Below, piece by piece: positions 1-10,168 of a stretch of DNA of 10,168 nt. The stretch comes from Muribaculaceae bacterium (lineage in GTDB: Bacteria; Bacteroidota; Bacteroidia; Bacteroidales; Muribaculaceae): contig JAIDUY010000208.1 in the NCBI GenBank assembly GCA_029059965.1, positions 1 to 10,168 of the forward strand, in the 5' to 3' direction. The position numbers and the translations under genes were made by a program. The notes under the pieces are model-generated. The model had not been told where the DNA came from. It ran no database searches and saw only the letters and a program-made list of their open reading frames with translations. The first letter of the stretch is position 1. The number at the start of each line of letters is the position of its first letter.

Positions 1-3000
1 CGTCGTACTCTTCGCGGGCGCTCCGGTAACGTATCGAACTTTTCTTCGGCTTTATACTTGGATTCTCGAACGAATTTACTACCTTTGCCAAAGCTTCCAA
101 GTCGAGATATTCCACCTCAGCGAGATTCGTTCGCTGTTGGTCTATCAAGGCTTGGATTTTTTCTTTATCCAGCCACTCCGACTTGCCCTGAATTATCCAG
201 TTCAGCCACTCGGCATTGTCTTTCGGGAACAAACCGCGAATGTCCGATACTACAGTTCCTCGTCTCGACTGGTTGAAATGAACACCGACGACAAATTGTT
301 TGCCATCTTTCATCAAGCCTACGATGACGTTTTCCGCCTTGCTCCGTTCGCCGTACCTGAATACAGCAATCGGAGTCTGTATTTCTCTCGGCAAATCACG
401 AACATCTGAAATGTCGAATTCGTGATTGCGCTTCTCTGCTTTAAGGGCGAGCTGTTTTGCCGACAGTTCAATGACTGCATCAGGGAAGCCGGCCGCAAGT
501 AACGTGTCTCCCGGCATGCCCATATCATACACATGTCCGGCCGGAAGCGTGCCGTCAATCTGTCGTTGTAGCTGTTCGTTGAACCGCGCATTGACAGCCT
601 CGACATCGTCGCCGAAGTTTTCGCCGCTGAGCTCCTCGTCGCGGTAACGGCCAACGCTGAGGCGCTCCTGCATCACAACGTTTTCAGCCTCGCCTACTAT
701 GCCGCGGTTCTGCCGCTGCTGATAGGCGCGCCACAGCATGTAGCGAATCTCATTCTGACCGATATTCACCCCCGACGGCACACCGGCGCCGCCGATGACG
801 GCATCCAGCACGCGCCGCACAGCGTCGCACACGCGCTGCCAAAAGCCGCGCTCAACCTCGTTCATATCCTCGAAGCCGCGCTCCGCGAGCGAAGCAATAT
901 ACTCCTCTGTGGCCAGGCGCACGTCCCAGCCGTTGCGCGCCATCAGTGCGTGAATCTCGGCGCGAACCTCCGAATCGGCATGCTCGTACACCTCGTCGAG
1001 GAATGCATCAAAGCGCTCCTCCCCGACAAGCTCGCGCAATCCCTTGTGCCCGACAACCTCGTGGAGCACCGTAGCCTCCACGTCGGCAACGTTGGCATTG
1101 TTGGGAACCACCACCACAACCTCGCCCGTGGCGATGTCGTACCAGCCCTTGGCCGCACGTTTGTCCGCAGCATCATCCGCATTGTCATCCACGATGTCGT
1201 TGACATTCTCGACAACGCGCACACGCACGCCCAGCTTTGCGCCAAGTTCCGATGCGCGCTCGGCCATCGCCCGCACATCCGTATTCGCGCGGTCATTTAC
1301 GGGCCGCTCCGTCTCCTCCGAAGTGCGATAACGAACATCTCCGTCCGCCGCGCCTTCGTCTTCGCGCAACTCCAAACTTGCCCGTTCAAAAAATTGTTGT
1401 AACTTTGCGTCAACAATCCCATCGTAGTCGGTAGTCCCCCGTGATGTAATCGGAATGGTTCGGCTTTCGGTGGGATTTTCGTATACATCCACATTGCTGA
1501 CAAAGAACGAGTGTGTCCCTGCCCGCCCGATTTCATGCTGAACAGTTGTCCGCACAAAGTAGAGCCTGCCGTCAATCGTTACTTTCCCTACATAGTTCTC
1601 AAAACGTAGTACATTTTTGTGCTCTTTGTGCTCAGTGCCATCGGGTCTGACTGTTCCTCCGAGATTGTCTGCTTCTGTATACGCAAGTATGGATTTGTCA
1701 AGCACTTTGCTTAATACAGGTACCACCTGCTCGAACAGGCCGCCTTCCTTGTGTATCTTCTTGAACGCACTGCGGTAGAACGCTATCTCTGCGCCGTCTT
1801 TCTTAACCGAGGGCAGATTATTGTAAATCTCGCGCAGTTCTGCCCGGCTCAGGTTATTTTTTTCTACCTCAACCGGTTCGAGCGCGCGTATCGCAAGCAG
1901 CCTCTCTCCGTCCGTCATACTTTCGCCTTTGCCGAATGCTTCCTCGCCGCTTGTCGGAGCTTCAGCGCCGCTGTCCTCGACGCGAGGCACATAGTCCTCG
2001 CCGCTCTCGCGCATCAGCCCCGTGTCCACAGCGCTCGCGACAAGCGCGCAGTCTACTGTCATAGCGTCGAGCATCGTTACGCCGGACGCACTGAGTCGTG
2101 TCACATCGCGACCCAGCGACGACGCGCCTTGGATAGACACGTTGCCATACACAACTACTCGCGTGCCGCCATACTTGATGGCCACGCTCACCATCTCCTC
2201 GGCAAGTCCGGGAGCATCGAGCGCAGCGTATTCCGTATGGAAGTTGCCAACCACAGTGTTGTTGGTCGACAGCACAAGGTAGCTCACCTTCTTGCCGCCG
2301 CCCAAGCGCCGATGAGTCACAAAATCGGCTGCATCCTGCGACATCCTGATAACCACGGGCTCCTTATTTTCGCCCAGTCGCTCGGCATGCTGCAGGCGCA
2401 GTACGTCGGCTTGCGTTTCGCCGCCATTCTGTCCGCGGTCGTATTGTTCTGTTTCGCCACGACCCGTGAATACGGCATAGCGTCCCGAAGTGGTGTCGAT
2501 GATGATGCCTTCGACTTCGGCCTCGCCCTCGAAAGCTGCCTCTAGCGCACGGACGAGCTTCTGGTCTTGGACGCTCGCGGTAAGCGAACCCGACGGATGA
2601 TTGTGTACAAGGTAGATTTTGTCGGCGCCGAACGCATCCATACCGGCGCGGACAGCTCCGAGGTCGGCGAAGCTTGCCGCGGGGCCACCCATACCTATAT
2701 GCTGCACCTTGGCGCGCCCGTCTTTGACGAACACGGCGAAAACATTCTCTATCGAATAGTCCTCCAAGGCTCGGAACAGGTATGCGACATCGCCGCGGTC
2801 TCTGATGACTTCGTTGCCCGTGAATCCGAACTCGCCCGTGCGGCTGAACTGACGTTCGACGTAGGCGAACTCACCGGCCTCGGCGTCGGGCAGATGGCCT
2901 TGAGCATCATAGCTTATGTAGCCGCCCGCAGTTCTGACGCTTACGTCCTCCGATGCGGTCGGTGCGCCGTCTGCCTCCCTGCTTGCTCTGTTGTCAGGCA

Positions 3001-6000: not shown

Positions 6001-9000
6001 CTTGCGCACTCTCGAAGTTTCCGCCATTCAGCATTTCCAGTAGTGGAATATATACGTCGCGGTAGTAGGCCTCCGCCTTTAAGGCGTCTTTGGCTTGGCG
6101 AACCCACCCTTCGATGTCGTAGCCGGCCACGCCGCGCTCGGGATTTGCCTCTCCGATGCTCTTGAGGTATTCCCAGAAGTCTGACGCACTCGTCACTTTC
6201 GACAACCTCACGTTTCGCTCGTGATTTTTTTCGTATTCGACAAGCTGCTTACGACAAAATGCAAGGTCCTGCCTGCCCAATTCACCCGTAAGCTGGTCCT
6301 CCCAATATATTGTCGTTTCCGTCCTGTTCCCTATGCGAAGCCCTTTGAGCTTGCCGTCGCTGCTCTCGACCTCCTCGAATACAGTAACGCCATTGCCTCT
6401 CTTGGCGAGGGTCTTCTCACGCAGTTTCAATAATTCCTCGTCTGCCGATTTACCCCAGCCGGCAAACCCGCCTGCAGAACTTTCCGCCCCCGCCTCTTGT
6501 CTATCCGCCAAAGAGTCGCTATCTTTGCGCTCGGAAGAAGAAGGATTTGGTTCGACAGCTCGTGAACCTTCGTCAGGCTGACCAGCGGTGCCTGTGGTGG
6601 CAGCGTCCTTCTCTTCCTTTTTTTGTTTCTTCTCCTTTGCGGATTTACTCTTGTCAAATGCAGTAAGAACCCAGTTGCCTGCATCATCTTTTGCAATGAC
6701 TACTCGATAGTCGCCTTTCTCAACGGCAACAGTATTCCCTTTTTCTTCCTCAACGATTTCACCATTCTTGATTACATCGCCAATGACATCAACGGCTTCT
6801 TCAATGCTCCTGAAGTCACCGAGTGTCCGGACGTGCTTGCGGTCAATATGGGCAAGGCCTTTGCCGGAGTATGGTGTAGGCGCATCGCCCCACACAAGGT
6901 CAATGTCACCTATCTCATCTCGATGGAACACACCTTTGGCTTGGCCGGATTTCAATGCCGATAGAAAATCGAGTGCCGCGCGTGCCTTCCCTTTGAAAGC
7001 ATCGTATATCTCGCCGAATTTACCTCGGCCTATTGGACGAGGTCGGTCGGCTTGCTGCGCCGCGGTCGGCTCAGACTGCGCGTCCCTTACAGCTTCCGTT
7101 CCGCCGGCTTCCGCTTGTGCAGTCTGCACATGGCCAGTGCCCGTGCGGCCAGTCGAAGCGGGTCCTGCGCCCTCAGCGCCTTCGCCTCCTGCAGCGTCAT
7201 CAGCTTCTTCTCCAGGCAGTATTTCAGAGCCTCTTTCAGTTCGGCGGCTCTCGCGTTGTTCTGTTCCATCTTGTCTATGATTTTCGTTGATAGTGTTTTG
7301 GTCTCCATATGACGCTACGCCGAACTGCTCGACGACGTCGCGGTATTCCTCCGGCAACATGTCGAACTGCCCGTCCGCATCCTGCTCCGTCTCGGCAAAG
7401 GCGGCTTCCAAGGCGGCGACATCTCCCTCGGTGAGGTCGCCGAGCTGTGCGCGCAGCTGCTCTTCGTACGCCTCTTCTTCCTCAGCAATAATCCTGCCAA
7501 TTTCCGAATCGACGTGCTCCAAGTACGCCTCGCGCTCATCGATTGCCCTGCCGAGCTCCGAGCTGACATACGCCTCATAATCTTCCGACCCCGCGGCGCG
7601 CTCGCTTAACTCCGCATACAGCTGCTCTTCGTAAGCCTCGAACTCCGCAGGCGTCATGTTGAACTCCTCGAGGTACCAATACTCGCGCGCCTCGGCGGAG
7701 TTATAGACGCCCTCCTCAGCCTCACGCTCCATCCTTTCGCGGCGGCGCTGAGCTTCGAGGGCCACCTCGTACATCTGACGCGAAGTCGGAGCGGTGCGGA
7801 ACATCTCCAGCACCGCGTCGCGTACATCGGCGTCGGTAGTCTCCGAATTGTTGAAGCTGACGTCGGGCGCCTCCATGAGACGTTCCCATAGAAGATGAAC
7901 GAACTCATCGAAACTCAAGCCGTTGGCCTCCGAAGTCGTCCAGCGCAAATCCTTGCGCTCCGACATATCCTCGCGGCCATACAACTGTCTGCCCAGTCCC
8001 TTGGGACCGCCCCACTTGATGCGCTCCTTCGTTGTCGACATCTCGCGGGCAAGCCACTCTTCGAGGCTGTCGGCCTGTCCCCAGCGGGAATACATCTCGG
8101 CGTACTGCTTAGCGCCTTGCGCCCTATCCTCACGCTCATGGCGGAGGCGCGTAGCCTCGTCGACTTCGCCGTCCTGCCCGTCGCCAAACCACGCCTCGAA
8201 CGCAGCATCGGCCGCGCGCACCGCAACTCGCTCCGGCCTTGCCTCCTCAGCCTCGCGTAGGGTGGCCTCGCGTAGGGCAGCCTCGCGCTCCTCGATGCGT
8301 CGGCGCTCGCGCTCCTGCGCCTCAAGGCGTGCCGCCTCAAGGGCGGCCGCCATCGCAGCCTCCCCGCGCTCATTCTGACGCCTGCGTTCCTCTTCGATAC
8401 GCTCGCGCTCCACAGCCTTGCGCAGATTATGCACAGCCTTAATCCTGCGCCACGCCTGAACCTTGGCCTCCGCCTCGGCCAGCTTGCGCTGATACTCGAC
8501 CATAGCCTGCTTGTTAGCCTGCTCCGCGCGGCGCCGCTCCTCCAGCATAGCCTCGGGACTTCCCTTGCCCGCAAGCCTCGGCTTGGCAGGTGTCGGCGGC
8601 TTCTTCCGAAGCTTCTCCAGCTCATTTGCAGCATCGTCAATCATCTGCTGCACGATAGGCAGCGCACCGTCTACGCCGCCCATAGCCTCGACAAGACCAT
8701 CCCACGCAGTCTCAGGCTCGACAGCAGTCCACTGCCGCCGCTGCGTCGCCTCATCAACGGGAATGAGCGACAGCGCCGACCCTCCCGACGCGTCAGAACT
8801 TTCTTCGCCGGACGCTTGTTTATCTGATGTGGAGTTAGTAACTTTGCCAACGGAAGAACTTCGAGACAAGGCGCTCACGCCGTCACTTTCGGGCATATCT
8901 TGTGCCGGCGGAAAGTCTTGCGATTCACCCGAAGTCGTAGAATGTTCGGTGCCGGCATTCCAGAGTTCTTTTCTCTTACTGATGTAAGAGTTTTTGAATA

Positions 9001-9565
9001 CGCCCCCGGAGTTGATGACATAGACATCGCCTTCGGGGACGAATTCGATATACAGAACCCCACCTTTCTTGTTTTGCTCCGTTGTAAGAGGTTTCACCAA
9101 AAGATAGGTTTCCTTTGTCTCTCCGGTCTCAGGGTCAGTATAAAGGTTGCCCTGTCGGATTTCTATATAATTACGGCAAACATCTTCCGCGAACTCCTCT
9201 ACGCTATTGTAGCCGTTAGCCTGGAGTTCGGACAGTCGCTTCTCCATGTGTTTGCGCCCAAAGCCATCCGTGCCGAACTGGAGCTTAATCGGAGCTTCCC
9301 TGCCTATTCCGATGGCATCTGCTTTGACTGCATCTATATAGCCAAATTCTTCAGAGCCATCAGAACTTAGCACATAACCGCGTTCTCCCTGCTCCGCAAC
9401 TTCTGTCGTCGTCCGCACATCCTCCCGCCCCTCCGCAGCTCCGTCTCCACGCTCCACTGCGGCGCCGCTCCTCCAGCATAGCCTCGGGACTTCCCTTGCC
9501 CGCAAGCCTCGGCTTGGCAGGTGTCGGCGGCTTCTTCCGAAGCTTCTCCAGCTCATTTGCAGCAT
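1..9565 (-). CDS. Giant multidomain polyvalent protein of a phage or conjugative element (3' end beyond the window)
   Basis: One minus-strand frame stays open from the codon after TGA 9574-9572 to base 1, about 3,188 codons from ATG 9565; I checked every in-register triplet for stops. Domain order: BECR nuclease (residues 72-202), repeat-encoded linker, coiled coil (340-480), acidic lysine-free stretch (539-848), second BECR nuclease (846-976), unknown domain (1033-1284), LPD5-like modules (about 1573-1746), LPD1 with HEWWH (1865-1869), coiled coil, RadC/JAB with HNHPSG (2321-2326), LPD3-like, HEVVGH peptidase (2835-2840), MuF C-terminal type. Polyvalent proteins are thought to be delivered with element DNA and to counter host defences; that role is inferred here. 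The true start is uncertain: residues 1 to about 36 are the 297-bp repeat read out of frame, so coding sense begins near 9460 and GTG 9457 or an upstream frame joined by a shift are alternatives. No downstream gene is visible. Confidence 0.85.
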   Translation of the reverse strand, partial: MLQMSWRSFGRSRRHLPSRGLRAREVPRLCWRSGAAVERGDGAAEGREDVRTTTEVAEQGERGYVLSSDGSEEFGYIDAVKADAIGIGREAPIKLQFGTDGFGRKHMEKRLSELQANGYNSVEEFAEDVCRNYIEIRQGNLYTDPETGETKETYLLVKPLTTEQNKKGGVLYIEFVPEGDVYVINSGGVFKNSYISKRKELWNAGTEHSTTSGESQDFPPAQDMPESDGVSALSRSSSVGKVTNSTSDKQASGEESSDASGGSALSLIPVDEATQRRQWTAVEPETAWDGLVEAMGGVDGALPIVQQMIDDAANELEKLRKKPPTPAKPRLAGKGSPEAMLEERRRAEQANKQAMVEYQRKLAEAEAKVQAWRRIKAVHNLRKAVERERIEEERRRQNERGEAAMAAALEAARLEAQERERRRIEEREAALREATLREAEEARPERVAVRAADAAFEAWFGDGQDGEVDEATRLRHEREDRAQGAKQYAEMYSRWGQADSLEEWLAREMSTTKERIKWGGPKGLGRQLYGREDMSERKDLRWTTSEANGLSFDEFVHLLWERLMEAPDVSFNNSETTDADVRDAVLEMFRTAPTSRQMYEVALEAQRRRERMEREAEEGVYNSAEAREYWYLEEFNMTPAEFEAYEEQLYAELSERAAGSEDYEAYVSSELGRAIDEREAYLEHVDSEIGRIIAEEEEAYEEQLRAQLGDLTEGDVAALEAAFAETEQDADGQFDMLPEEYRDVVEQFGVASYGDQNTINENHRQDGTEQRESRRTERGSEILPGEEADDAAGGEGAEGAGPASTGRTGTGHVQTAQAEAGGTEAVRDAQSEPTAAQQADRPRPIGRGKFGEIYDAFKGKARAALDFLSALKSGQAKGVFHRDEIGDIDLVWGDAPTPYSGKGLAHIDRKHVRTLGDFRSIEEAVDVIGDVIKNGEIVEEEKGNTVAVEKGDYRVVIAKDDAGNWVLTAFDKSKSAKEKKQKKEEKDAATTGTAGQPDEGSRAVEPNPSSSERKDSDSLADRQEAGAESSAGGFAGWGKSADEELLKLREKTLAKRGNGVTVFEEVESSDGKLKGLRIGNRTETTIYWEDQLTGELGRQDLAFCRKQLVEYEKNHERNVRLSKVTSASDFWEYLKSIGEANPERGVAGYDIEGWVRQAKDALKAEAYYRDVYIPLLEMLNGGNFESAQGRQDMTAGGTRLHAGVKRRTKSLYERMSGYDDDELVYLLYYNEYPGSPMQKDARRILEERGVDVESAIADMGKELGRHTAPIDIPGDIEGLLKMTGSKEAGAAGAALSDGKGSESSSDAQGRGAAKAARQGQKSKTPGGQNGRVEDFGEKIEGARKDMLNTLAKSVENATEQSLIELPLSKSFTRPNLKKMVESGAITDSDALWGEAILQSMVYAHRKPVVTRRASSKRAVAEWAKNVRRGIVLLGEVLSGDPTRRDAALAEHRRRLDAEREAINTHIINLREWNPGKEFKDVSEMPDPLEVTRRVLEGIGYRTGESVKLPLTNVELNTTGQSYVVGSAGKQGALWFRRSHNTLNEAIDTMVLAAKLARGDRDVELPVRQFVVAGMGARHCRPTGKYEVMYFGTNVWDVKTRVFNTKEEADAFAEKRSGHARVFEQTRSTDEYDSYGIKVVNPLTGESYTIRADFGSRDEAAAWLDESHDEANNLALDALYREMKVDGPSRSHFRVETAYRHGKRAYRVVEDSKNNPWAFVKYFNTREEADTWYAANVNRLEAERKARREKENKVVYFNTDEERHGIDRRGGKDATPQMFDEAFGFRGVQFGNWTNSADRHAALNQAYDALMDLADFLGVSSRALSLDGQLGLAFGARGSGRFAAHYEPMQVVINLTKTNGAGALAHEWWHAVDNFMSRNAGVPLGHASEFNGIDNMHPEIRRAMAGLMDAVGNSAYAKRSRDKGEYWGRPTEFCARLFESWVSTGLKERGEANPFLSSLLDRWAMEMYQNGNYSAYVDKQRALAEHEKRVPEIMSKEEFFKLPESLRGYPYPTPEEIKAFGTHMQTLFDAMASRESESGSMVNERGGRYRRRGSTVVGKSLFDWADEEEQRQRQSEAADEKALAAQGANTACDEYSEAYAGYLDRVAELERQLAEADENSAETLALRDVIELEENAAVEARERLVESLRDYYGADTTPADASRIARDMAARIQAEVDIRRNRERLLTDILPDNRASREADGAPTASEDVSVRTAGGYISYDAQGHLPDAEAGEFAYVERQFSRTGEFGFTGNEVIRDRGDVAYLFRALEDYSIENVFAVFVKDGRAKVQHIGMGGPAASFADLGAVRAGMDAFGADKIYLVHNHPSGSLTASVQDQKLVRALEAAFEGEAEVEGIIIDTTSGRYAVFTGRGETEQYDRGQNGGETQADVLRLQHAERLGENKEPVVIRMSQDAADFVTHRRLGGGKKVSYLVLSTNNTVVGNFHTEYAALDAPGLAEEMVSVAIKYGGTRVVVYGNVSIQGASSLGRDVTRLSASGVTMLDAMTVDCALVASAVDTGLMRESGEDYVPRVEDSGAEAPTSGEEAFGKGESMTDGERLLAIRALEPVEVEKNNLSRAELREIYNNLPSVKKDGAEIAFYRSAFKKIHKEGGLFEQVVPVLSKVLDKSILAYTEADNLGGTVRPDGTEHKEHKNVLRFENYVGKVTIDGRLYFVRTTVQHEIGRAGTHSFFVSNVDVYENPTESRTIPITSRGTTDYDGIVDAKLQQFFERASLELREDEGAADGDVRYRTSEETERPVNDRANTDVRAMAERASELGAKLGVRVRVVENVNDIVDDNADDAADKRAAKGWYDIATGEVVVVVPNNANVADVEATVLHEVVGHKGLRELVGEERFDAFLDEVYEHADSEVRAEIHALMARNGWDVRLATEEYIASLAERGFEDMNEVERGFWQRVCDAVRRVLDAVIGGAGVPSGVNIGQNEIRYMLWRAYQQRQNRGIVGEAENVVMQERLSVGRYRDEELSGENFGDDVEAVNARFNEQLQRQIDGTLPAGHVYDMGMPGDTLLAAGFPDAVIELSAKQLALKAEKRNHEFDISDVRDLPREIQTPIAVFRYGERSKAENVIVGLMKDGKQFVVGVHFNQSRRGTVVSDIRGLFPKDNAEWLNWIIQGKSEWLDKEKIQALIDQQRTNLAEVEYLDLEALAKVVNSFENPSIKPKKSSIRYRSAREEYD
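90..545 (-). other. Domain: MuF C-terminal type
   Basis: Residues about 3008-3159: GHVYDMGMPGDTLLAAGFPD, AVIELSAKQLALKAEKRNHE, FDISDVRDLPREIQTPIAVF, then KAENVIVGLMKDGKQFVVGV and a WLDKEKIQALIDQQRTN helix. The 'H.y.mG.P...L..aG....I.l....L..K...H.fd...l..LP..i..PiavF' pattern matches the domain found at the C-terminus of Mu gpF-type proteins and in many polyvalent proteins. Its presence ties the protein to a phage head or DNA-delivery context. The chain continues beyond it with SSIRYRSAREEYD at the window edge. Confidence 0.75.
860..1275 (-). other. Domain: HEVVGH metallopeptidase (polyvalent type)
   Basis: Residues about 2764-2902. The core is KGWYDIATGEVVVVVPN, ANVADVEATVLHEVVGHKGL, RELVGEERF, with His 2835, Glu 2836 and His 2840 in an HExxxH arrangement. 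ATEEYIASLAERG (Glu 2887 or 2888) is a candidate third ligand. 'HE.VGH.GLR.L' followed about 45 residues later by 'E.(I/L)A.LAE' is the signature of the metallopeptidase found in phage polyvalent proteins. It is likely a zinc protease acting on the polyprotein itself or on host proteins; which one is unknown. Confidence 0.7.
1385..1925 (-). other. Domain: LPD3-like
   Basis: Residues about 2548-2728, starting near MTDGERLLAIRALEPVEV. Visible features: NLSRAELREIYNNLPSVKKD, GAEIAFYRSAFKKIHKEGGL, FEQVVPVLSKVLDKSILAYT, then the strand pair ENYVGKVTIDGRLYFVRTTV and THSFFVSNVDVYE. The helix-then-'v..dG..y.vr..v' layout fits large polyvalent protein-associated domain 3. The DNA here is visibly richer in A and T than its neighbours, suggesting separate acquisition. 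LPD3 has no assigned activity. Confidence 0.6.
1985..2370 (-). other. Domain: JAB-like partner lacking the JAMM motif
   Basis: Residues about 2399-2527: EPVVIRMSQDAADFVTHRRL, KVSYLVLSTNNTVVGNFHTE, ELVS-like helix EEMVSVAIKYGGTRVVVYGN, then DVTRLSASGVTMLDAMTVDC. The pattern (strand with 'YLVLSTNN.V', helix, 'G.RVVVYGN' strand, helix, 'GV.MLDAM') parallels the RadC JAB core with the HxHP turn replaced by a glycine-asparagine turn. It is probably an inactive duplicate or a scaffold for the active domain. The assignment rests on pattern resemblance only. Confidence 0.45.
2440..2890 (-). other. Domain: RadC-like JAB/MPN metalloprotein
   Basis: Residues about 2226-2376. An intact JAMM motif is visible: Glu 2273 in the IENVFAVFV strand, then HNHPSGSLTASVQD with His 2321, His 2323, Ser 2331 and Asp 2334 (H-x-H-x7-S-x-x-D). 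Flanking strands IYLV and VEGIIIDTTSGRYAVFTG fit the RadC JAB fold. RadC-type JAB domains are common in mobile elements and antirestriction loci; their substrate is unproven. With zinc ligands intact this domain should be catalytically competent. It is followed by a second JAB-like partner. Confidence 0.8.
2950..3365 (-). other. Domain: second coiled coil
   Basis: Residues about 2068-2206. Heptad-like Glu/Ala/Leu/Arg sequence: GYLDRVAELERQLAEADENS, TLALRDVIELEENAAVEARE, then ADASRIARDMAARIQAEVDI and a basic RRNRERLL. It separates the LPD1 half from the RadC/JAB half and follows the RYRRR motif at 3427-3419. It is probably a structural spacer. Confidence 0.65.
3715..4225 (-). other. Domain: LPD1-type with HEWWH zinc-peptidase-like motif
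   Basis: Residues about 1781-1950. The order GVQFGNWTN, NQAYDALMDLADFLG, LSLDGQLGLAFGARGSGRF, AHYEPMQVVINLTKTNGAGA, LAHEWWHAVDNFMS is that of large polyvalent protein-associated domain 1. His 1865, Glu 1866 and His 1869 form an HExxH motif; a candidate third ligand is Glu 1931 in EYWGRPTEFCARLFESW, which has the spacing and helix character expected. So an active gluzincin-like protease is possible, although the family is usually described only as an associated domain. It follows the LPD5-like modules, a common pairing. Confidence 0.75.
4330..5600 (-). other. Domain: DFGEKIEGARKDM helical region and LPD5-like modules
   Basis: The N-terminal part has VEDFGEKIEGARKDM, then KSFTRPNLKKMVESGAITD and ALWGEAILQSMVYAHRKP, a sequence style I associate with the segment preceding LPD modules in phage methylase/helicase polyvalent proteins. 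After a helical spacer (AALAEHRRRLDAEREAINTH) come three short alpha/beta modules with a common ending: VFNTKEEADAFAEKR, FGSRDEAAAWLDESHDEANN and YFNTREEADTWYAANVNRLE. Each resembles the others and suggests triplication of a roughly 50-residue binding unit. LPD5 is my best family guess; no catalytic residues are expected. Confidence 0.5.
5715..6470 (-). other. Domain: unrecognised, about 250 residues
   Basis: Residues about 1033-1284, between the SERKDSDSLADRQ linker and the low-complexity GSESSSDAQGRGAAKAAR linker. It begins with a small beta-rich part (VTVFEEVESSDGKLKGLRIG, TTIYWEDQLTG) and continues helical (SDFWEYLKSIGEANPERG, YDIEGWVRQAKDALKAEAYY, DDDELVYLLYYNEYPGSPMQ, LEERGVDVESAIADMGKELG). 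Sequence complexity and conserved-looking aromatic residues suggest a folded domain. I recognise no catalytic motif or family name; its position beside nuclease 2 may mean an accessory or immunity-like role, but that is a guess. Confidence 0.5.
6502..6538 (-). repeat. Linker repeat SERKDSDSLADRQ, copy in the middle of the giant gene
   Basis: Thirty-seven bases match 9752-9788 with one difference (C at 6519, T at 9769). The encoded linker is SERKDSDSLADRQ here and SERKDNDSLADKQ there. In both places it follows the C-terminus of a BECR-type nuclease domain and precedes a G.ESS-type tail, so the same linker marks two effector-to-body junctions more than 3 kb apart. Confidence 0.85.
6640..7030 (-). 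other. Domain: BECR-fold nuclease 2 (PBECR type)
   Basis: Residues about 846-976. The diagnostic stretch is EIGDIDLVWGDAPTPYSGKG followed by LAHIDRKHV (His 906 and His 911), then SIEEAVDVIGDVIKNGEIVE, YRVVIAKD, NWVLTAFDKSK. The GDIDLVWG...GKGLAHIxxKH pattern is that of phage BECR-type nuclease domains (including the DUF3519-like group); the histidine helix and the K/D near the C-terminal strand are the presumed active site. A lysine-rich tail (KEKKQKKEEK) follows. It is preceded by the acidic linker and followed by the SERKDSDSLADRQ linker, as expected for a separable effector module. It is different from nuclease 1. Confidence 0.7.
7022..7951 (-). other. Segment: lysine-free acidic stretch
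   Basis: Residues 539-848 contain no lysine codon at all, between Lys at 7954-7952 and Lys at 7021-7019. Within it the 105 residues read from 7633 to 7319 hold, by my count, 25 Glu and 9 Asp against 6 Arg. Motifs repeat (YEEQLYAEL and YEEQLRAQL; SSELGRAID and DSEIGRIIAE). The first part (DADVRDAVLEMF, EFNMTPAEFEAYEEQ) looks helical and globular; the last part (7306-7030) is a Gly/Glu/Ala/Thr linker. No known family is recognised. A DNA- or RNA-mimic surface is possible but speculative. Confidence 0.7.
7087..7308 (-). CDS. Embedded 73-codon ORF in an alternative frame (overprinted or absorbed small gene)
   Basis: ATG 7308 to TAA 7087, lying wholly inside the giant gene in a different minus frame. 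It encodes a lysine-rich, helical protein (METKTLSTKIIDKMEQNNAR, ALKYCLEKKLMTLQEAKALR) ending LHKRKPAERKL. Counting third positions, about 55 of 73 codons here end in G or C, against about 28 of 72 in the giant frame over the same bases, where the product is a low-complexity Gly/Glu/Ala linker. So this frame looks more like the native coding frame locally. I see no strong ribosome-binding site upstream, which is common in Bacteroidota. I do not recognise the family. It may be an internally translated protein, or a former small gene read through in the wrong frame after a fusion. Confidence 0.4.
   Translation of the reverse strand: METKTLSTKIIDKMEQNNARAAELKEALKYCLEKKLMTLQEAKALRAQDPLRLAARALAMCRLHKRKPAERKL
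8130..8548 (-). other. Domain: charged coiled coil
   Basis: Residues about 340-480. The segment starts at MLEERRRAEQANKQAM and is dominated by Arg, Glu, Ala and Lys with heptad-like spacing (KLAEAEAKVQAWRR, ERERIEEERRQNERGEAA, ALREATLREAEEA), then gives way to a more globular stretch with AFEAWFGDGQDGEVDEATR. It is probably a long helical spacer or oligomerisation segment between the 5' effector module and the rest. Part of it is built from a 15-nt tandem repeat. No enzymatic motif is visible. Confidence 0.7.
8251..8295 (-). repeat. 15-nt tandem repeat, three units, in the coiled coil
   Basis: Plus-strand units start at 8251, 8266 and 8281. The first two differ at two adjacent positions (CCTCGCGTAGGG then TGG or CAG); the third keeps only CCTCGCG. 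They encode a five-residue step of the LREA(A/T) kind. Such in-frame repeats can change coiled-coil length by slippage without breaking the frame. Confidence 0.8.
8528..8824 (-). repeat. 297-bp direct repeat, copy B (inside the giant gene)
   Basis: Same orientation as 9459-9755; I count 6 mismatches in 297 bases. In the giant frame it encodes SDKQASGEESSDASGG, IPVDEATQRRQW, a segment with MGGVDGALPIVQQMIDDAA and MLEERRR. The boundaries are sharp: beyond GCGGCGCC at the 8528 end and beyond TTTATC at the 8824 end the two copies diverge. The spacing is 931 bp, which is 1 mod 3, so the same protein is read in different absolute frames in the two copies. Confidence 0.95.
8960..9352 (-). other. Domain: BECR-fold (barnase/EndoU/colicin E5/RelE-like) nuclease 1
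   Basis: Residues about 72-202 of the giant protein. Visible features are APIKLQFG, GRKHMEKRLSELQ (a basic/histidine helix), GYNSVEEFAEDVCRNYIEIR, YLLVKPL, LYIEF and VYVINSGGVFKNSY. The order 'APIxL, G.KH, sv.eF...v...y..i, yllv, lfiEl, w.vnSgGifr' is that of the phage BECR-type putative endoribonucleases (PBECR, often named putative barnase/colicin E5 family). H in RKHMEKR is the likeliest catalytic or substrate-binding residue. As the first domain after a variable linker it occupies an effector-like position. Family assignment is from remembered motifs and was not searched. Confidence 0.6.
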
Positions 9566-10016
9566 CGTCAATCATCTGCTGCACGATAGGCAACGCACCG
9601 TCTACGCCGCCCATAGCCTCGACAAGACCATCCCATGCAGTCTCAGGCTCGACAGCAGTCCACTGCCGCCGCTGCGTCGCCTCATCAACGGGAATGCGCG
9701 AGAGCGCCGACCCTCCCGACGCGTCCGAACTTTCATCGCCGGACGCTTGTTTATCCGCCAAAGAGTCGTTATCTTTGCGCTCGGAAGATTCCGATAACGA
9801 AGAATTCCCGCTCAAAAGATTGCCACCCTCAGCAGCGTCTTGAACTTTTCCATCAACCGTGGCAGGAGATGTCTCAATTGCGGGTAGAGAGTTATCGGAA
9901 TCTTCTGCTCTTTCCACAAGCTCCTTGTTCTTGGTGTAACTTGCGCGAAACACTCCGCCACTGTTGACAGTCCAATATTCCTCACCGGCAGAAAGTTCAA
10001 TGTATAGAGAATGCAC
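9360..10016 (-). CDS. Truncated BECR nuclease-linker-repeat fragment, frameshifted before the giant gene
   Basis: This 218-codon ORF begins at GTG 10016, directly after an in-frame TGA (10019-10017) and below a TAG at 10052-10050. Its first residues, with LYIELSAGEEYWTVNSGGVF, match the last part of the nuclease domain at 9352-8960 (LYIEF then VINSGGVF), so the catalytic N-terminal half is missing. Next come a Ser/Asp/Glu-rich linker with SERKDNDSLADKQASG, and a block (IPVDEATQRRQW to MLEERRR) about 98% identical in DNA to 8528-8824. After MLEERRR the homology stops; the frame runs as Arg/Cys/Gly-rich nonsense to a stop at 9362-9360, while the sensible frame continues in the giant ORF one base over. 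It looks like a remnant of an earlier 5' end rather than a working gene. It could still be expressed as a small protein or joined to the giant gene by recombination or a sequencing correction. Confidence 0.55.
   Translation of the reverse strand: MHSLYIELSAGEEYWTVNSGGVFRASYTKNKELVERAEDSDNSLPAIETSPATVDGKVQDAAEGGNLLSGNSSLSESSERKDNDSLADKQASGDESSDASGGSALSRIPVDEATQRRQWTAVEPETAWDGLVEAMGGVDGALPIVQQMIDDAANELEKLRKKPPTPAKPRLAGKGSPEAMLEERRRSGAWRRSCGGAGGCADDDRSCGAGRTRLCAKF
9459..9755 (-). repeat. 297-bp direct repeat, copy A (upstream fragment)
   Basis: Partner of 8528-8824. In copy A the sensible protein frame is that of the 10016-9360 ORF; the giant ORF opens within this copy in the wrong frame. The copies differ at a few silent or conservative positions, so the duplication is recent or kept alike by gene conversion. 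The flanking nuclease sequences of the two units are only moderately alike, so the repeat is more conserved than its surroundings. Confidence 0.95.
9752..9788 (-). repeat. Linker repeat SERKDNDSLADKQ, copy in the upstream fragment
   Basis: Partner of 6502-6538 (36 of 37 bases). It overlaps the first bases of the 297-bp repeat copy A. The corresponding place in copy B (8825 onward) lacks the full motif and keeps only SDKQASG, so copy B has lost or exchanged the linker upstream of DKQ. Confidence 0.85.
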
Positions 10017-10058
10017 TCATTCCAGCCAACCTACAAGCCTCCGCAGTAGCTAATAACG

Positions 10059-10071
10059 CAGTAACTTACTG
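10059..10071. promoter_or_regulatory. 13-bp palindrome CAGTAACTTACTG, candidate operator
   Basis: A perfect inverted repeat of six bases either side of a central C lies between the terminator and the 10016 ORF. It overlaps the only weak leftward -7-like sequence (TAAGTTAC) in this gap, with a TTTG about 22 nt upstream at the end of the terminator T run. A repressor site is plausible, but chance is not excluded. Confidence 0.3.
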
Positions 10072-10091
10072 ACAAGCGCCCACATAGGCAC

Positions 10092-10122
10092 AAAAAAAAT
10101 TGATTGTCTCCCGACAACCAAT
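10092..10122 (-). terminator. Intrinsic terminator on the minus strand
   Basis: On the minus strand a 10-bp stem (ATTGGTTGTC with GACAATCAAT, one G-U pair) closes a GGGA loop and is followed at once by a run of T (the A run at 10092-10099 on the plus strand). This is a textbook Rho-independent terminator for transcription moving leftward. It lies upstream of the 10016 ORF, so it either ends an upstream gene outside the window or acts as an attenuator in the leader of the giant gene. Confidence 0.85.
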
Positions 10123-10159
10123 CCAGTTAACCTTAAATCTATACCATGAAAAACACGAT

Positions 10160-10168
10160 GCAAAGTTA
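10160..10168 (-). promoter_or_regulatory. Possible Bacteroidota -7 box (TAACTTTGC)
   Basis: The first nine minus-strand bases of the window read TAACTTTGC, a full match to the Bacteroidota -7 element TAnnTTTG. The -33 TTTG element would fall outside the window. If used, a transcript would start near 10153 and meet the terminator at 10122-10092 after roughly 60 nt. Confidence 0.35.

Follow-up and report, generated by a model that had tools for sequence, protein, structure and literature searches.

We propose that small antisense RNA genes, placed in the protein linkers of a giant phage-type gene, travel with exchangeable RNase modules, and give this reading as a whole a probability of roughly 0.7. 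The window (the whole stretch of DNA analysed, which is an entire contig of 10,168 bp) would be part of a giant polyvalent virion-protein gene in a Bacteroidales prophage-type element with exchangeable RNase modules of the BECR fold. Behind three of its RNase modules (PBECR1, module A and the remnant of module B) the opposite strand carries a Bacteroidales-type promoter, ACTTTC-N12-TTGTTTWTC-N14-TAWCTTTGC. The features discussed below are the following.

58..88, plus strand: weaker promoter-like site after MuF_C
1378..1408, plus strand: weaker promoter-like site after LPD3 (itself below the Pfam cut-off)
6479..6528, plus strand: antisense promoter behind PBECR1, 1 mismatch
6533..6624, plus strand: putative antisense RNA of PBECR1, bulged closing stem then T7, fails the strict stem test
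6641..6928, minus strand: PBECR1 domain, Pfam match above cut-off
8528..8827, minus strand: inner repeat copy (linker end and start of the H body)
8798..8847, plus strand: antisense promoter behind module A, 0 mismatches
8852..8995, plus strand: putative antisense RNA of module A, hairpin 8973-8990 then T5, fails the strict stem test
About 8942..9388, minus strand: nuclease module A, BECR/PBECR3-like core, from homologues and conserved residues
9459..9758, minus strand: outer repeat copy (H'), 8/300 mismatches
9729..9778, plus strand: antisense promoter behind remnant B, 0 mismatches
9780..10016, minus strand: remnant of nuclease module B (C-terminal part and tail), start-less, with a stop just upstream
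9783..9912, plus strand: putative antisense RNA of module B, 16-nt arm 9783-9798 pairing with 9891-9905 and beyond, T-rich end
10090..10156, minus strand: FopS sRNA (RF04319), 68.8 bits, gathering score 56

Pfam domains above cut-off in the window are PBECR1, MuF_C, LPD1 and RadC, with LPD5 and LPD3 below it; one polypeptide carries several disparate domains of the polyvalent type, the feature by which polyvalent proteins are recognised. The window itself has no neighbouring genes. In its relatives the giant genes have virion genes of a phage or mobile element as neighbours, and the first-pass annotation's view of the gene as phage-type is borne out by the relative loci examined, which carry integrases, a P22-like portal and a T7 gp14-like protein that falls just short of the cut-off (Pfam scan of all but L058 and L062). 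Its placement of the repeats at the 5' end of the giant gene is not supported: what is seen there is the end of the contig, 410 bp beyond the outer repeat copy, and of the 14 relative frames that match H, the repeat-encoded part, 12 have it at residue 1,050-1,522, the exceptions being L051 (residue 322) and L056 (residue 15, at a contig start). The genome is fragmented (545 contigs, 6.3% contamination); with the queries used, a second giant gene in it gave no match outside contig C122. On contig C89 of the same genome, a promoter with two mismatches lies antisense to a 183-codon frame.

The linker promoter has a TTG at -33, TAnnTTTG at -7 and a conserved ACTTTC box farther upstream. TAnnTTTG at -7 with TTTG or TTG near -33 is the form of a sigma-ABfr promoter, and the linker boxes agree with the published consensus (PMC7366714), from which the ACTTTC box is absent. 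In 20 long frames selected by homology (L066 omitted as a near-duplicate), the relaxed promoter was found 28 times antisense and never in sense, where codon shuffles give 1.29 and 0.09; 141 control genes, a set replacing an earlier one contaminated with pieces of giant genes, gave 3 antisense and 3 sense (expected 0.77 and 0.85). The -7 box alone is mildly enriched (antisense 78 against 57.8, sense 46 against 31.0). At the protein level, the linker motif was counted 27 times across 41 giant proteins (10 of 50 names removed as redundant and the window's outer frame added). Twenty-one of these occurrences lie at most 110 residues after a BECR domain (four types), in zones that make up 4.1% of residues, against 1.8 in protein shuffles, the near-duplicates L053 and L066 both being counted; six lie away from any recognised BECR domain, two of them probably by chance. 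Codon choice agrees with the promoter in 218 of 219 cases, and also in 15 instances from loci found by protein homology; 22 of the 37 instances come from loci retrieved by the DNA pattern and the sequences are related, so that codon probabilities are overstated. Of 51 promoter matches outside giant genes, 29 stand ahead of an ORF start, compared with 7 when the matches are mirrored. Class A of the promoter matches (44) includes L110, probably an ordinary promoter.

A terminator-like stem with a T-run follows the promoter in 23 of 41 RNAs, against 8.3 by resampling; 18 of the 41 fail the strict terminator test, including two of the window's three, and a generic terminator scan of the window was not above chance (13 against 9.8). 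Folding energies differ weakly from synonymous resampling (mean z -0.63; 6/41 below -2). The sets of 41 used for folding and terminators omit two L139 elements and L140_2269, which have sense-frame stops, and the set of 44 RNAs leaves out L110, L115, L132, L149 and L175. Two RNA types, one of which includes the window, have compensatory pairs, with two-sided changes in 12/44 and 11/23 pairs, in alignments (A3 and A4) of five sequences each that were picked from a larger number of same-type candidates before folding and that also supplied the structures on which the pairs were scored. G-U pairs favour the antisense strand, by 23 to 1 and 10 to 4, and in 20 of 35 pairs the RNA blocks are alike while the neighbouring enzyme cores are at an unrelated level. 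No linker RNA matched Rfam at gathering score in the window (FopS only) or in five relative loci, and DNA searches of phage and plasmid collections with one RNA type returned no match. The idea of a conserved antisense protein was given up, as just 10 of 44 antisense-class matches have an ORF of at least 80 aa starting within 120 nt and no common product was apparent; so was that of a tRNA-like RNA, of which ARAGORN found none across six sources.

The promoter boxes, their strand, the codon constraint, the covariation and the exchange of modules emerge from comparison of sequences, and the RNAs are presumably made. At the 3' ends of RNase modules, the linker-coding DNA would double as a small RNA gene on its other strand, with a host-type promoter, a product of roughly 85-140 nt and, in many cases, an intrinsic terminator. 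These linker RNAs probably guard the RNase modules, which they would keep silent in the dormant phage either by antisense control of the giant mRNA or by inhibiting the enzyme as RNA. Alternatively, genuine RNAs of this kind may have host genes as their targets, acting in trans as FopS or GibS do, and simply reside in the giant gene: the RNA blocks outlast replacement of the adjacent nuclease core, and FopS sRNAs are described as acting in trans in Bacteroides (PMC11697453). However, most of the RNAs lie behind RNase-type modules and every one is fully complementary to its own mRNA, and we consider this alternative unlikely. It is somewhat more doubtful still that the linker element is a DNA site with a role other than transcription, for instance in recombination or as a target of a phage regulator, or that only its peptide is conserved. 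That it marks module borders, that RNA blocks are kept while cores change and that its ACTTTC box falls outside the published promoter consensus would suit such a role; the constraint at codon level, however, speaks against peptide alone, the boxes and their spacing match the host promoter, similar sites precede host genes, and covariation in the downstream RNA would be unexpected for a plain site.

Module A is complete and sits between the two repeat copies, as the first-pass annotation had stated; its homologues conserve a His in the N-terminal helix and an NSGGVF motif, H61 and S141 of A2 being nearly invariant (motif assignment after section 19 of PMC5512222). Module A itself reached no Pfam model, and its BECR fold is deduced from homologues, one of which (P0003) matches PBECR3 across the equivalent domain just below cut-off (E 1.5e-6). 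The related BECR tail reported upstream of the outer copy is likewise present, as the C-terminal part of module B, which lies in a single 218-codon frame; it is without the half bearing the conserved His and is preceded by a stop codon and a terminator-bearing sRNA. Another protein, P0061, shares this remnant, begins at the same codon and diverges just before H'. Nothing useful came from querying viral and genome collections with the nuclease or repeat region, from tblastn searches with it against phages and plasmids, or from the outer frame as a protein query.

The near-identical direct repeats are confirmed at a start-to-start distance of 931 bp, with differences at 8 of 300 positions (six within the 297 first delimited); their identity and length exclude chance, and the genome holds two copies only. 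The earlier argument that 931 is 1 mod 3 carries no independent weight, since both copies encode the same peptide and in-register recombination therefore preserves the frame. What had been overlooked is that the repeat edge falls within one of the recurrent antisense promoters found behind RNase modules: the repeat is constant as far as the -33 box, past which RNA and nuclease diverge. Judged by eye, a module-A-type nuclease is followed by an H-like body in P0001, P0002, P0004 and P0005, by another BECR module in P0003 and by other sequence in P0007 and P0009. Identity between P0002 and the window is 76% in the nuclease, 82% in the linker and about 35% in H, which supports the view that a nuclease travels together with its tail.

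The suggestion of a recombination-driven effector exchange thus divides. Exchange of modules is supported, different nucleases being found upstream of the same body and in varied nuclease/body combinations across homologous loci. A ready cassette switch, in which recombination between the 300-bp repeats swaps the active nuclease of the giant protein, is by comparison highly improbable. Near-identical direct repeats do enclose one module, the same peptide is read in frame from both copies, and Rhs toxins are known to undergo swaps mediated by repeats (PMC3967940); but what lies upstream is a truncated module B with neither a start nor the half bearing the conserved His, so that no alternative intact module is available to the repeats and recombination between them would lose the sole intact nuclease there. 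The arrangement does not recur either, direct repeats of at least 200 bp being found in 0 of 18 relative loci (17 genomes), and the genome has no third copy. We instead propose that the repeat is the trace of an earlier replacement of nuclease and RNA gene upstream of the same body, which would have left a truncated remnant of the other module. A weightier concern, which we judge a real possibility short of an even chance, is that the outer 710 bp (9459-10168) are partly misassembled, pieces of another variant or locus having been joined at the contig end. The position at a contig end of a fragmented and partly contaminated genome, the two abrupt junctions near 9458 and near 10016, no more than about 560 bp apart, the multicopy FopS at the extreme end and the different continuation of P0061 just before H' all point this way. 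Against it, remnant and H' form one coherent frame, the shared first codon of P0061 indicates that the break of the remnant recurs in another record, and the last 169 bp have no exact overlap with any other contig of the genome. The antisense promoters and RNAs elsewhere are unaffected. FopS was dropped as an explanation of the locus because it exists in multiple copies, with matches in 36 of 49 genomes, and because stretches of 79 bp and 78 bp are identical at differently flanked loci in G027 and G028; the DNA between FopS and the remnant gave just two weak matches (19-25 bp) across 396 other genomes.

More tentatively, and with rather less than even confidence, the giant protein may be injected as a train of RNase toxins, each enzyme accompanied by a backward-written RNA gene in its linker that silences or inhibits that RNase in the lysogen. 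The shared promoter and linker would serve as the exchange site, weapon and matching guard being swapped in one recombination step. To the question of how dormant phages put up with several potentially toxic RNases in one late polyvalent gene, and how they reshuffle these enzymes, linkers coding for protein on one strand and for a promoter-driven structured RNA on the other would, if true, be a specific answer. We found no description of such phage RNA genes in Rfam or the open-licence PMC literature. The linker element could also be used as a sequence tag for RNase modules and their borders in metagenomic phages.

Among known systems, the PBECR polyvalent proteins, including the mosaic jhp1044 of H. 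pylori (Iyer et al. 2017, PMC5512222), are likewise giant multidomain phage proteins with several BECR RNases and with module duplications and rearrangements; the part of that source considered here does not mention antisense promoters or RNAs in linkers. FopS sRNAs (PMC11697453), one copy of which lies at this contig end, resemble the putative linker RNAs in their host-type promoter and would do so as terminated small RNAs, but neither FopS nor any other Rfam family matched the linker RNAs at gathering scores. Bacteroides cis-antisense RNAs such as DonS (PMC7366714) share the sigma-ABfr-type promoter and the antisense orientation, and the 78-128 nt reported for the DonS family is a size range like that predicted for the linker RNAs; DonS, however, is divergent to susC genes, whereas the putative linker RNA genes are nested within a long coding region, where modules end. 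As in type I toxin-antitoxin systems (PMC6563280, PMC3543317), an RNA gene would be antisense to a toxin-coding region, but the putative toxin here is a domain of a giant virion protein with several units per gene. In the type III system ToxIN (PMC5772629) an RNase adjoins a structured RNA, as would be the case here; ToxI is co-transcribed, whereas the putative linker RNA is antisense. Finally, as with the orphan toxin modules of Rhs and CDI systems (PMC3967940, PMC4927057), recombination in shared sequence would exchange modules, but those orphans lie 3' of the main gene, whereas the remnant here lies 5' of the intact module.

The contig (C122), which the window covers in full, comes from a genome of 545 contigs, 83% complete and 6.3% contaminated, and carries its giant gene on the minus strand. 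The body of this gene encodes PBECR1, MuF_C, LPD1 and RadC domains, together with LPD5 and LPD3 domains scoring below the cut-off, which identifies the product as a polyvalent protein. The nuclease-linker-repeat protein, used as query, finds matches in 31 of 397 same-family genomes, its own genome counted, where open frames reach 7,363 codons; one family protein (P0010), which has the protein length and H position of L051 from one of those genomes, is listed at NCBI under a Bacteroidales bacterium and so places the family in this order. Judging from neighboring genes, among them integrases (L054, L062), a P22-like portal (L055) and a T7 gp14-like protein whose match falls just below the cut-off (L053), the surroundings of the giant gene in the tested relatives are laid out as in a podovirus-like prophage.

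Starting from the D2 repeat family of the window, a linker motif approximating S-x-G-K-[VD]-N-x-L-S-x-[DE]-K-Q turned up in 27 instances across 41 giant proteins. Twenty-one of these lie no more than 110 residues behind a BECR domain belonging to one of four types, in zones that make up 4.1% of the residues and receive 1.8 motifs in protein shuffles. The codons used are fixed: AAA for the first lysine, CAA, GAA and AGT each occur in 37 of 37 instances, and 218 of 219 scored choices fit overall (log10 P of -114 under gene-wide usage, a value too extreme because the sequences are related). While 22 of the 37 instances came from loci fetched by DNA pattern, the 15 from the window and protein-homology loci show the same choices, bar one AGA and one GGT, both residue-changing. 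Read on the opposite strand, these codons spell ACTTTC-N12-TTGTTTWTC-N14-TAWCTTTGC, which fits the published sigma-ABfr promoter (TAnnTTTG at -7, TTTG near -33; PMC7366714). Separately, gene-specific linker peptides, of which QFRAQGVQVPEIPSPE in L064 is an example, recur in several positions within the giant genes of L064, L061 and L059 with 84-100% DNA identity.

Putative antisense promoter elements and related features of the window
58-88 (+), weaker antisense promoter-like site, after MuF_C
1378-1408 (+), weaker antisense promoter-like site, after LPD3
6479-6528 (+), antisense promoter element, one mismatch
8798-8847 (+), antisense promoter element, pattern match antisense to the gene
9729-9778 (+), antisense promoter element, pattern match antisense to the gene
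10090-10156 (-), FopS sRNA (RF04319), at the contig end

None of 200 window shuffles yields the element, even with up to three mismatches. In 20 long frames (the window and loci selected by homology), TTG-N20-TAnnTTTG occurs 28 times antisense and never sense, against 1.29 (maximum 5) and 0.09 when synonymous codons are shuffled; taken by itself, the -7 box says less (antisense 78 vs 57.8, sense 46 vs 31.0). The same pattern occurs in 141 control genes three times antisense, two of them in one giant-gene fragment, and three times sense, all at gene starts (expected 0.77 and 0.85). With up to two mismatches the element has matches in 76 of the 397 scanned genomes, and the reversed pattern has none among the matches listed. 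When 97 distinct matches were classified, six of which lie on viral contigs, the 31 without a mismatch all proved to be antisense in open frames of at least 218 codons, partly by construction since the pattern was derived from such genes; eight viral contigs with the exact element likewise carry it antisense, in frames of at least 605 codons. Outside giant genes the matches behave like promoters: an ORF starts within 120 nt downstream in 29 of 51, compared with 7 of 51 when the direction is mirrored. At MuF_C ends, the -7 box is present in six of six instances and both boxes in four.

In 23 of 41 cases, the sequence downstream of the -7 box contains a stem and, after it, a T-run (mean of 8.3 and maximum of 13 on resampling). 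The putative module-B RNA of the window passes a strict stem rule; the module-A and PBECR1 RNAs fail it, having respectively a 7-bp hairpin followed by T5 and a bulged stem followed by T7. Folding energy is unconvincing by itself (mean z -0.63; -1.97, -1.03 and -3.33 for the three RNAs of the window against dinucleotide shuffles). In five PBECR2-type RNA sequences, 12 of 44 pairs have two-sided changes and 97.3% of cells are paired, a signal destroyed by sliding; none of 500 shuffles reaches four of five measures, and 43 reach the fifth. The B-type RNA, window included, has two-sided changes in 11 of 23 pairs, with 0 of 500 shuffles matching it on all five measures. G-U pairs favor the antisense strand in the two types, by 23 to 1 and 10 to 4. 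A PBECR2-type covariance model, run on 43 sources, gave 13 matches with E of 5e-9 or lower, among them the five model sequences plus three near-copies of one such sequence; the distance from the promoter pattern to the start of the match is 1 nt for 11, 9 nt for one and 129 nt for one.

The RNA blocks are retained while neighboring enzyme cores are replaced: among 35 pairs in which the first 110 nt of the RNA are more than 80% identical, the adjacent core DNA is at most 0.62 identical in 20, the level of unrelated cores (median 0.60, 95th percentile 0.63). The RNA is therefore not always tied to one enzyme core. Some linkers seemingly stack two tails (L139, L103, L101), and conservation is higher in the tail of nuclease A than in its core (invariant columns, 16 of 28 vs 52 of 140 in a six-sequence alignment). 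Protein P0002 shares 76% identity with the window over nuclease A and 82% over its linker, but only 35% over the body. On visual inspection, what comes after nuclease A is an H-like body in four proteins (P0001, P0002, P0004, P0005), another BECR module in P0003 and different sequence in P0007 and P0009; in P0027 the tail is all that remains of nuclease A. Truncated copies of this nuclease also occur close to contig ends, with chromosomal genes alongside (L093:112-600; L094:120-280, the latter with a tRNA-Arg gene at a distance of about 175 bp).

The first-pass annotation had proposed a cassette switch, in which recombination between 297-bp direct repeats would delete the inner nuclease and join the tail of the upstream one to the coiled-coil body. 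The repeats are there (8528-8827 and 9459-9758, 931 apart, with 6 differences in 297 and 8 in 300), and nuclease A does have differing followers. Of 14 displayed H-containing proteins, that of the window carries a nuclease immediately upstream of H; none was recognized in 12 others, L056 being without upstream sequence, and several relatives carry a similar nuclease downstream of H instead. A direct repeat of at least 200 bp was found in 0 of 18 relative loci from 17 genomes. The predicted fusion does keep the frame, but automatically so, since both copies encode the same peptide, each in its own frame. Differences between the copies leave four codons synonymous and three non-synonymous (random expectation 25% synonymous), which is a hint only. 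The frame of the outer copy stops shortly beyond the repeat (9360), and the sensible frame of the body starts at the junction of H' and module A (9456-9470), adjoining a 10-bp palindrome, GCGGCGCCGC. The edge of the 300-bp repeat falls within the antisense promoter.

Only a remnant of the outer module is present, starting at a GTG with an in-frame stop just upstream and without the His-bearing half. In the region 9700-10016 (minus strand), P0061 (114 residues, 510-bp contig) is identical to this remnant for 105 residues, beginning at the same codon, then departs from the window two residues ahead of IPVDEATQ, so that the remnant is probably real and its joining to H' and module A uncertain. 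Upstream lie about 73 bp of unmatched DNA, then FopS with its terminator at the contig end. The 79-bp FopS stretch recurs unchanged in a second species of the genus, where other sequence flanks it, and Bacteroides phage BX-TP2 (L098) has a FopS-like stretch (78% identity across 79 bp) next to the gene for a DNA methyltransferase.

Sequence comparison shows the host-type promoter boxes, their strand, the codon constraint, the structure of two RNA types and the exchange. BECR enzymes of the colicin type cleave tRNA or mRNA in such a manner that silencing would be of use. The host polymerase would probably make the antisense RNA while phage late genes are silent, and this RNA, lying opposite the end of the RNase module, could act on stray sense transcripts by blocking, cleaving or terminating them; alternatively, the RNase could be what it binds. 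The ACTTTC box is suggestive of regulation. Some elements follow domains other than recognized BECR ones which, with the weaker LPD3 and MuF_C sites, indicates that the association may be less strict or may extend beyond RNases.

Searches of the open-licence literature turned up no description of antisense RNA genes within polyvalent-gene linkers. The components have precedents: mosaicism of PBECR (PMC5512222), recombination between toxin fragments sharing a stretch (PMC3967940, PMC4927057) and, in Bacteroides, cis-antisense RNAs (PMC7366714) are already known.
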